From Gammaproteobacteria bacterium (lineage in GTDB: Bacteria > Pseudomonadota > Gammaproteobacteria > SZUA-140), in the NCBI GenBank assembly GCA_016218365.1, contig JACREF010000011.1, forward strand, positions 73,094 to 137,093: DNA of 64,000 bases. The letters run 5' to 3'. How positions within the stretch are numbered: the first letter of the stretch is position 1; every line of letters starts with the position of its first letter. A model generated the notes under the pieces. That model saw only the letters and a program-made list of their open reading frames with translations. It had not been told where the DNA came from and did not search any database. Of the stretch, positions 4,344 to 9,805 are shown in pieces. Made by a program: the position numbers and the translations under genes.

Positions 4344-5264
4344 ATGTCGCGACGCGCCTCGGCCCGTAATGTTCACGGCATCCTGCTGCTCGACAAGCCG
4401 CAGGGCCTGACCTCCAACCGGGCGCTGCAGCGCGTCAGGGGGCTGTTTCAGGCCCGCAAGGCCGGTCACACCGGCAGCCTCGATCCGCTGGCGACCGGCA
4501 TGTTGCCGATCTGTCTCGGTGAGGCGACCAAGGTCTCGGGTTTTCTGCTCGATGCCGACAAGGAGTATCAGGTCAGCATCCGGCTCGGCCAGACCACCAC
4601 CACCGGCGATGCCGAGGGCGAGACAGTCTCTATCCGCCCGCTCCCCGATCTTTCAATGACCGGGCTCACACAGACGCTGCAGCGCTTTGTCGGGGGCATC
4701 GATCAGATACCGCCGATGTACTCGGCCTTGAAGCGTGATGGCCAGCCCTTGTACCGGCTGGCGCGGCAGGGCATCGCGGTCGAACGGGCGCCGCGCCGGG
4801 TGATCATCGAGTCTGTAGTCTTGCACCGTTTCGATGGTCAGGAGTTGGCGCTGACGGTACGCTGTTCCAAGGGGACCTATATCCGCAGCCTGGCGGTGGA
4901 TATCGGTGAGCTACTGGGCTGTGGCGCCCATGTCACGGTGCTGCGCCGCAGCGCCGTGGCCGGGTTTGACGGGGCGAGCATGGTCACGCTTGAGCAGTTA
5001 GAGCAGCAGGCCGCCAGCGGCGGCCTGGACGCGCTGGACCGATGGCTGCTGCCGATGGACAGCGGTCTGGCGCACTGGCCGGATATCCATCTGTCCGCTG
5101 AGGGTTCATTCATAGTCCGGCGCGGTCAGGCGGTGCTGGCCATGGCCAGCCCGGTCCCGGGACCGGGCTGGGTCAGGTTGTATGGCGCGGAGGCCGGGTT
5201 TCTGGGTCTGGGACAGATGCTGGGCGATGGCCGGGTGGCCCCTAAACGTCTGTTCAATCTTTGA
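4344..5264 (+). CDS. truB: tRNA pseudouridine(55) synthase
   Basis: GILLLDKPQGLTSN, KAGHTGSLDPLATGMLPICLGEATK motifs; start chosen at the internal ATG (ORF track start is 4317). Confidence 0.95.
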   Translation: MSRRASARNVHGILLLDKPQGLTSNRALQRVRGLFQARKAGHTGSLDPLATGMLPICLGEATKVSGFLLDADKEYQVSIRLGQTTTTGDAEGETVSIRPLPDLSMTGLTQTLQRFVGGIDQIPPMYSALKRDGQPLYRLARQGIAVERAPRRVIIESVVLHRFDGQELALTVRCSKGTYIRSLAVDIGELLGCGAHVTVLRRSAVAGFDGASMVTLEQLEQQAASGGLDALDRWLLPMDSGLAHWPDIHLSAEGSFIVRRGQAVLAMASPVPGPGWVRLYGAEAGFLGLGQMLGDGRVAPKRLFNL

Positions 5265-5783: not shown

Positions 5784-7886
<2,103 letters not shown>

Positions 7887-7924
7887 GCCAGCGATTGCCG
7901 GAGCACGGGCCGGAGTAACAACAG

Positions 7925-8039
7925 AAAAGGGGCCGCTGGCCCGGGGTATAGTGTAAGGGAATTTAGTTCCGTTTTCTGACCACACCCTGGCTAGGCCCTC
8001 AAAAAAGCCGCCACCCACCCCGGGTGGCGGCTTTTTTGT
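7925..8039 (+). repeat. Left copy of a 115-bp imperfect inverted repeat, in the 3' region of pnp
   Basis: Gapless by-eye alignment to the reverse complement of 9273-9387: 104/115 identical; ends in an intrinsic terminator. Confidence 0.9.
8001..8037 (+). terminator. Intrinsic terminator downstream of pnp
   Basis: Perfect 16-bp stem AAAAAAGCCGCCACCC / GGGTGGCGGCTTTTTT with 5-nt loop and U-tract. Confidence 0.9.
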
Positions 8040-8360
8040 CATAAGACATACAGAACATTATTCCTGACGGCTTACTGCGTTGCGTCACATGTTAATTGTC
8101 ACGCCGTAGTACGGTTTTGGCTGCGCAATGTGCTCGGGCCAGGAGCCGACCCAAAACGGTCATTACCCAAAATAATTAGCCCCCCCATAGCATGGATGAC
8201 TGGGGAAACGCTGAGTTATATACTCCACTGATATGTCTCGTTTTGCTTCGGTTTATAATGAGACAAGCGCATACCAATTCTATATAAAACAATGTAATAC
8301 ATAACTATGTTAGAATTCCACGGAGTAAACTATACAGATCGGAGTGTGCATATAGTGACT

Positions 8361-8367
8361 GTTAGGC
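8361..8367 (+). other. GTTAGGC: integron core-site-like motif (GTTRRRY) just before the insert gene
   Basis: 10 nt separate it from the ATG at 8378; GCATATAGTGACTGTTAGGC matches the reverse complement of the post-gene segment GCCTAACAGTTATTATATGG at 17/20 positions. Confidence 0.45.
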
Positions 8368-8377
8368 GTCAATATCC

Positions 8378-9136
8378 ATGATCGACGATCTACTTAAATC
8401 CGCTAAGGAATCAATCTCTGAGCGTTTGGGAAATCCATTACTCGGTAGCTTCTCAGTTGCATGGTGTCTCTGGAACTACAAGTTTCTTGTAATTCTGTTC
8501 TCCGCCGCGAGCGTGTCACGGACATTCAATCTCATTGAAACGGTGGCATTTCCGGATGCATGGTCTATTTTCACGCGAGGCGTCGGCTTCCCGCTAGTTA
8601 CCGCGCTTCTTTATGTATTTGTATATCCATATCCGGCTCGCTACGTGTATGCCTTCACTCTAAAACGCCAAAGAGAAATCAATCAAATAAAGCGTCAGAT
8701 CGAAGAGGAGACGCCTCTCACCCTCGAAGAATCCAAGAGGATTCGAGCAGGATACGTTCAGTTGGAGCGCAAGAACCAAGAGACCATCGATCGCCTTAAC
8801 GAGGAAGTGGCACGTCTCAAGGCCGCACTAGACCAAATACAAAAAATTGAGTCAGATAGTCCCAAGCTTGCGCTGTCAGAGAAACTATATGGGCAGCTTG
8901 AGCCCACGCAGCTAGATTTGCTCAAAACCCTTGAAGAGAGCGGTGGAAGGGTCGCTCTGTCTCAGCTGTTAAATCGTTCTTCAGAGTCTAAAATTAAAAC
9001 GGAGTTCGATATTGGGGAGCTTGAGAGAAGAGAATTAATTCATAAGAGTTTCGATAGGGATATCGAGGAAAATGTGTTCGCATTCACTCATGAAGGGCGA
9101 AGAGTGCTTCTCAATGAAGGCAAGCTTGGAGCCTAA
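8378..9136 (+). CDS. Uncharacterised protein: two predicted TM segments, coiled coil, C-terminal winged-helix-like domain
   Basis: MIDDLLKSAKESISERLGNPLLGSFSVAWCLWNYKFLVILF... (TM), second hydrophobic stretch GFPLVTALLYVFVY, charged heptad-like region, then LTPTQ-like LEPTQLDLLKTLEESGGRVALSQLLNRS...FTHEGRRVLL wHTH-like end. Confidence 0.85.
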   Translation: MIDDLLKSAKESISERLGNPLLGSFSVAWCLWNYKFLVILFSAASVSRTFNLIETVAFPDAWSIFTRGVGFPLVTALLYVFVYPYPARYVYAFTLKRQREINQIKRQIEEETPLTLEESKRIRAGYVQLERKNQETIDRLNEEVARLKAALDQIQKIESDSPKLALSEKLYGQLEPTQLDLLKTLEESGGRVALSQLLNRSSESKIKTEFDIGELERRELIHKSFDRDIEENVFAFTHEGRRVLLNEGKLGA

Positions 9137-9137
9137 C
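9131..9137 (+). other. GCCTAAC: integron R''-like motif (RYYYAAC) overlapping the stop codon of the insert gene
   Basis: Stop codon TAA (9134-9136) lies inside the motif; no matching GTTRRRY was found downstream within 140 bp, so a complete attC is not shown. Confidence 0.4.
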
Positions 9138-9272
9138 AGTTATTATATGGACCGGATCGAGTCCTAATCATGAATGGCTTCCGCTCCATGTTTTTTACTC
9201 TCAATGTACTACCTTAAATGCCCTGAGAGTTTGGTAGTTAACCCTCAGAGCTATCAGTTTTCCTTCTGGAAT

Positions 9273-9387
9273 ACAAAAAAGCCGCCACCCGGGATGGGTG
9301 GCAGCTGCTTTGAGGGCCTAGCTGGGGTGTGGTCAGAAAGCGGAACTAAATTCCCTTACATTATACCCCGGGCCGCTGGCCCCTTTT
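9273..9387 (-). repeat. Right copy of the 115-bp inverted repeat, in the 3' region of the pilZ gene
   Basis: Reverse complement aligns gaplessly with 7925-8039 (11 mismatches by eye). Confidence 0.9.
9275..9311 (-). terminator. Intrinsic terminator of the minus-strand PilZ gene
   Basis: On the minus strand: AAAGCAGCTGCCACCC-atccc-GGGTGGCGGCTTTTTT; imperfect stem with U-tract. Confidence 0.75.
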
Positions 9388-9415
9388 TTTGTGTTGCAAC
9401 TGCTGGATCAGTGCA

Positions 9416-9805
9416 TCAGGCCTCGGTGGTGACGCCGTCGAACTCGTCAAGGAACTTGCGCATCGCCAGGAAGAAGAACGAATTGCTGCTGCCATTGCTG
9501 CGGCTGAATTCGATGCCGAGCGCGAACTTGCTGCGTGCTGCGGTGCTGGTGCACCACATGACGGTGCCGTCGATATCAAGCTTGAAGTCACCTTCGGTGT
9601 AGTGCAGGACGACGGCTGTGCCTTGTTTCAGCGGCTGATCCATCTCCAGGCCGGCACCGGACACCGAGACATCACGGATCGCGGTGATCGGAAAATCCTG
9701 CTGCCCCGCCGACATCGTGAACAGGTGTTCGCGGCCATCGATCTGGACGCCATGGCGTGCGCTTTGACGCTGATCGGCCTTGGTTTGCGCGGTATTCTTT
9801 TTCAT
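9416..9805 (-). CDS. PilZ domain protein
   Basis: DQRQSARHGVQIDGREHLFTM...ITAIRDVSVSGAGLEM...IGIEFSR-like PilZ features; SD GGAGG upstream of the ATG. Confidence 0.8.
   Translation of the reverse strand: MKKNTAQTKADQRQSARHGVQIDGREHLFTMSAGQQDFPITAIRDVSVSGAGLEMDQPLKQGTAVVLHYTEGDFKLDIDGTVMWCTSTAARSKFALGIEFSRSNGSSNSFFFLAMRKFLDEFDGVTTEA

Follow-up and report, generated by a model that had tools for sequence, protein, structure and literature searches.

The window, by which we mean the whole 64-kb stretch of DNA analyzed, contains the polynucleotide phosphorylase gene pnp (5784-7886, + strand), an open reading frame 71-80% identical to its orthologues in the same family, and a convergent pilZ-domain gene (9416-9805, - strand; Pfam PF07238, E=3.8e-9). 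Between the two genes lies a pair of long inverted repeats. Alignment of 7925-8039 with the reverse complement of 9273-9387 gave 115 bp without gaps and with 11 mismatches, reproducing exactly the figures of an earlier note on this DNA. The repeat can be prolonged to 123 bp (7917-8039 and 9273-9395, 14 mismatches; BLAST E = 4.6e-39), and the 123-bp pair occurs once in the host genome. The enclosed 1233 bp (8040-9272), which the same note had described as AT-richer than its surroundings and as holding one gene without known function, has a GC content of 45%, compared with 58-64% for the genes alongside, and contains a single open reading frame (8378-9136, + strand). The left part of this interior (8040-8322) is AT-rich and non-coding, and a plasmid search found no relative of it.

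A short hairpin, GGGCCGCTGGCCC, is intact on both flanks of the insert in the same orientation, forming a 13-bp direct repeat. The host terminator's AAAAG precedes the left copy (7930-7942), and the right copy (9370-9382) is followed by a host C and the T-run tail (9383-9390). With the hairpin in brackets, the left junction reads AAAAG[GGGCCGCTGGCCC]GGGGTATAG... and the right junction reads ...TATACCCC[GGGCCGCTGGCCC]CTTTTTTT. On both sides the loop of the hairpin is GCT on the + strand, so that an inverted duplication is excluded in favor of an insertion that duplicated its target. Because the target is palindromic, the length of the duplication is formally 3 to 13 bp; a length of 13 bp requires no coincidence. 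When the flanks were rejoined with one hairpin copy, an 89-bp intergenic region with a normal bidirectional terminator, AAAAGGGGCCGCTGGCCCCTTTTTTT, was obtained.

The pnp-pilZ locus was compared in four relatives of the same family (G012, G009, G006 and G001; loci L016, L018, L019 and L027), and in all four pnp and pilZ are convergent and the insert is absent. The stop-to-stop distance is 72-112 bp in the three relatives measured, each of which has one strong hairpin, and two of these hairpins form extended palindromes, e.g., AAAAAAGGGGCCATTTGGCCCCTTTTTT. A search for the whole insert found no match among 54 relatives. The earlier note had called for loci lacking the insert, and had named as evidence against mobility that all close relatives carry the gene and both arms; the empty sites contradict the latter. 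They also bear on the view that the pnp-side terminator was simply duplicated locally in inverted orientation, with no mobile element involved. It is true that the arms have similar sequences and that the native terminator is a palindrome, but the relatives' sites are short and empty, other genomes have related arms at other terminators, and the direct orientation of the loop counts as a refutation, which makes a local duplication extremely improbable.

The apparent inverted repeat is longer than the element's own because the outermost 18-26 bp of each arm consist of the palindromic host terminator and the 13-bp direct repeat. The element proper is 1427 bp long (7943-9369) and has terminal inverted repeats of 97 bp with 8 mismatches; thus the repeat pair of the earlier note stands, but its limits of 7925-9387 had to be corrected, the outer parts of the arms being host DNA. 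The terminal bases of the element are GGGG only. The left repeat (7943-8039, + strand) starts with GGGGTATAGTG and includes TTTTCTGACCAC, and the right repeat lies at 9273-9369 (- strand). Each repeat contains an inner terminator. That of the left repeat (8000-8038, + strand) has a 17-bp perfect stem with A6/T6 and is predicted to work in both directions, and that of the right repeat (9280-9306, - strand) has kept its T-run only for leftward transcripts, i.e., those from the pilZ side. Rfam gave only sub-threshold terminator-like matches. As the earlier note had observed, no transposase is encoded within the insert: the sole open reading frame in 7943-9369 is not one. The element is present in its own genome in one copy.

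Since long inverted repeats surround a gene, the segment might be an invertible phase-variation switch; the earlier note had envisaged that recombination between the arms could invert it. No recombinase is encoded inside, however, there is no clear promoter to be switched, and the inner terminators of the two arms insulate the segment in either orientation. Moreover, the arms belong to a terminator-associated family of ends, and target duplication explains the repeats and the whole arrangement as an insertion. No inverted allele was seen in the single assembly available for this genome. We therefore abandon the inversion proposal as highly improbable.

Related ends were sought in other genomes with a profile built from the two window arms (R1) and with a second profile (R2). 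Profile R1 yielded three full-length matches in genome G282, which belongs to the same class and another family, and profile R2 added a fourth match in G282, two matches in G774 and one weak match in G775. These three genomes (4, 2 and 1 related ends, respectively) belong to one genus and lie outside the host's family. The conserved end consists of GGGGTATAGTGAYAGG...TTTTCTGACCAC, followed by a GC-rich inner hairpin and a T-run; the inner hairpin was retained in 6/6 ends folded (-13 to -32 kcal/mol). Two of the G282 copies, which lie at unrelated loci (one precedes lexA, the other is beside a tRNA gene), have a 218-bp unit in common with 89.5% identity, and this is evidence of movement. A search for the 20-base end with up to 2 mismatches found no match in the other 368 genomes of the class, and neither BLAST nor pattern searches with the arms found a relative among plasmids, phages and viral contigs.

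Junctions were scored as positive when a hairpin with a stem of 4 or more was preceded by AAA and had its foot at the junction. A hairpin with an A-run was present at the junction in all six ends tested, which represent five independent sites, the two window ends belonging to one insertion; the background is 0.14-0.33% of positions. Every strong match in G282 abuts a host hairpin. Among three ends found later, the one on contig C39 has a hairpin, CCGGAGCGCTCCGG, at the junction as judged by eye, and those on C279 and C5 look degraded. These results support an association of the end family with terminators. In G282 the proximal stem of the hairpin overlaps the GGGG of the element, so that the window alone demonstrates duplication of the hairpin. 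Near the related ends outside the window, no second, inverted end was found; these are solo ends, and only the window shows two ends as a pair.

The solo ends raise the possibility of a composite, in which two copies of a short solo repeat of ~100-115 bp, itself inserting at terminators, enclose a passenger gene that travels with them, like TIME-COMP elements or MITE-flanked integrons. Only the ~100-bp end is common to the differing contexts, composite TIMEs are documented (PMC4133298), and a MITE pair flanking an integron is known (PMC3934969). On the other hand, no terminal repeats within a single arm delimit a ~100-bp unit, and in the window copy one target duplication encloses the entire structure. 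A composite would still need a transposase in trans and differs from our preferred reading, a single non-autonomous element, mainly in origin; we consider it possible but fairly unlikely.

The cargo gene encodes a protein of 252 amino acids with predicted N-terminal hydrophobic helices, which would be membrane segments, a predicted coiled coil and, at about residues 174-247, a predicted C-terminal winged helix of the MarR type. Its GC3 is 0.48, compared with 0.75-0.80 for the neighboring genes. Pfam and NCBIfam gave no family assignment for the protein, in line with the earlier description of the gene as one without known function, and PADLOC found no match to a defence gene. The low-confidence structure model contains N-terminal helices and a long coiled coil; its C-terminal domain is better predicted and matches MarR-type winged helices. 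In Rhodocyclales MAGs and Pseudomonas fluorescens, relatives with 45-58% identity occur as lone genes. Comparison with PHROG gave weak to moderate matches to families of unknown function, and distant relatives of the protein were found in viral contigs (L055-L058), suggesting that phages carry this gene family as well. In P. fluorescens PS918, a cargo relative is bracketed by direct copies with ~80% identity (L011:3631-3885 and 4836-5089), which correspond to the 3' part of a neighboring XRE/cupin-like gene. The PS918 copies suggest that members of this gene family are also inserted in another way.

The borders of the cargo gene resemble those of an integron cassette. The right half (L'-R') of an attC-like site lies upstream of the gene (8323-8367, + strand) and the left half (R''-L'') at its end (9131-9175, + strand). 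The R' box GTTAGGC (8361-8367) ends 10 nt before the start codon, and the R'' box GCCTAAC (9131-9137) includes the stop codon; each heptamer occurs once on the + strand of the 64 kb. Among 165 open reading frames of at least 100 amino acids, the cargo gene is the only one with attC-type motifs at both ends, and the two half-sites fold together into one hairpin. No clear, intact R' box of the gene's own attC was found downstream of it, and there is no complete attC. A relative in Rhodocyclaceae (L009:3940-4800) is likewise a lone gene, preceded by GTTAGGC and followed by GCCTAA...TATATGGAC. This relative adjoins a PIN/VapC-like toxin gene.

An integron integrase is encoded in the same genome (G000, contig C29:2927-3865, L012), with a score of 477 bits against a cut-off of 265. 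Upstream of it, palindromic attC-like sites and open reading frames for small membrane proteins extend up to the contig end. A fold-based attC scan of C29 was discarded as non-specific, the control having folded equally well, and for this contig we rely on the integrase match. The integrase contig is not that of the cargo gene, which is not in an array. Because the attC half-sites bracket a single foreign gene, it was most likely captured from an integron array into the element. With attC half-sites around the gene and IntI encoded in the genome, IntI itself might have put the whole cassette into a secondary chromosomal site. We regard this as very unlikely, since the insertion boundaries lie ~420 bp (left) and ~230 bp (right) outside the attC boxes and consist of terminal repeats and a target duplication, a structure that IntI insertion does not make. 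Given these boundaries, IntI can only explain how the gene arrived in the element.

We looked for an insertion sequence with the ends of the element and found none in the host genome (by end sequence), the 369 genomes of the class or the plasmids, phages and viral contigs searched. Part of the arm, TCAGAAAACGGAA, resembles the Tn21 repeat. A Tn3-type end was nevertheless rejected: it points in the wrong direction, the duplication differs from 5 bp, and a Tn3 transposase is absent from the host genome. An IS6-like fragment beside the arm on C279 of G774 was rejected as the owner of the arm, as it appears by eye to have its own left end. An IS1182-family transposase on C255 of G282 (397 bits) was ruled out as owner by its own, different terminal repeats, CAGGCTGTGTGAAAACTCC. 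This IS1182-family insertion sequence (L067:137-1817) landed with a palindromic repeat, GTCATTGCGAG, on one side and the unit that bears the arm on the other.

The element could still be an IS1182-family derivative of the IS1272 type that undergoes stem-loop-directed transposition in a stem-loop-duplicating variant. Stem-loops, terminators among them, are the targets of IS1272 and TnSha1, which carry a passenger gene (PMC4923244, PMC5678879), and the published model has a branch that duplicates the whole stem-loop, which is the geometry of the window. Against such a descent, IS1272 insertions remove the stem-loop without duplication, the sole IS1182 transposase near an arm has another terminal repeat, and a sequence link of the arms to IS1182 ends is not established. 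We judge this origin unlikely.

Taken together, the locus is probably occupied by a non-autonomous transposable element that inserted into the pnp/pilZ terminator, carries a former integron cassette gene as cargo and is moved by a transposase in trans. The 1427-bp element would have transposed into the stem-loop of the bidirectional terminator, and joining at the hairpin feet may have produced the 13-bp stem-loop seen on both sides. The family of ends lands at intrinsic terminators, as it did at several independent sites. The inner terminator of each end probably substitutes for the disrupted host terminator, and the inner terminators probably also protect the cargo gene from read-through. The earlier note's proposal of a mobile cassette that needs functions in trans is upheld by the empty sites in relatives, the 13-bp direct repeat and the ends at other terminators elsewhere; with one copy in the genome, current mobility is a proposal.

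More tentatively, the element may represent an undescribed family of Proteobacteria elements that hunts intrinsic terminators, duplicates their stem-loop rather than removing it, supplies replacement terminators and moves single integron cassettes from arrays to safe chromosomal sites. If so, insertion would be transcriptionally neutral, the lost terminator being replaced by one in each end. The ends bring their own terminators into a terminator target, a simple way to a harmless insertion, and the window provides a natural case of duplication of the whole stem-loop, an outcome that is only an alternative branch in the IS1272 model. The element also suggests a possible exit route of cassette genes from integrons, and its arms can serve as a search key for the missing transposase.

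Like mobile insertion cassettes of the MIC231 or mic-qnrD type (PMC3913671), the element consists of a passenger gene enclosed by terminal inverted repeats, lacks a transposase and has a target duplication (exact length 3-13 bp), and mobility is expected in trans. The repeats of MIC231 match a known insertion sequence, IS231, whereas the element here has no known parental insertion sequence; ends of the IS231 subgroup begin with CAT and have repeats of 10-12 bp, whereas those described here begin with GGGGTATA and have repeats of up to 13 bp. With IS1272 and TnSha1 of the IS1182 family, it shares hairpin targets that are often terminators (6/6 ends tested), and TnSha1 carries a passenger metabolic gene (PMC4923244, PMC5678879). 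Unlike IS1272, which deletes the stem-loop without duplication, the window element duplicates it, and it has no IS1182 transposase and different ends. TIME-COMP and MITE-flanked integron segments are likewise non-autonomous repeats around foreign DNA, including integron-derived genes. However, the repeats of TIMEs are of the 38-bp Tn3 type and their duplications are 5 bp long, in contrast to the GGGG ends and 13-bp direct repeat found here, so that the element does not conform to a Tn3-derived TIME or TIME-COMP, and the known MITE-bracketed integron carries resistance genes. An integron gene cassette also consists of a single gene with RYYYAAC at the stop codon and GTTRRRY just before the start codon, as the R'' and R' boxes of the cargo gene have it, but the window gene lies outside an array next to intI, its attC is incomplete, and it is bounded by transposon-like ends. 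Membership in the IS1182 family or the Tn3-derived TIMEs, or status as a resident integron cassette, is thus not supported. The element appears to be functionally like a mobile insertion cassette and like IS1272 in its targeting, membership in neither group being shown, and we classify it as a variant of the non-autonomous passenger-gene elements.
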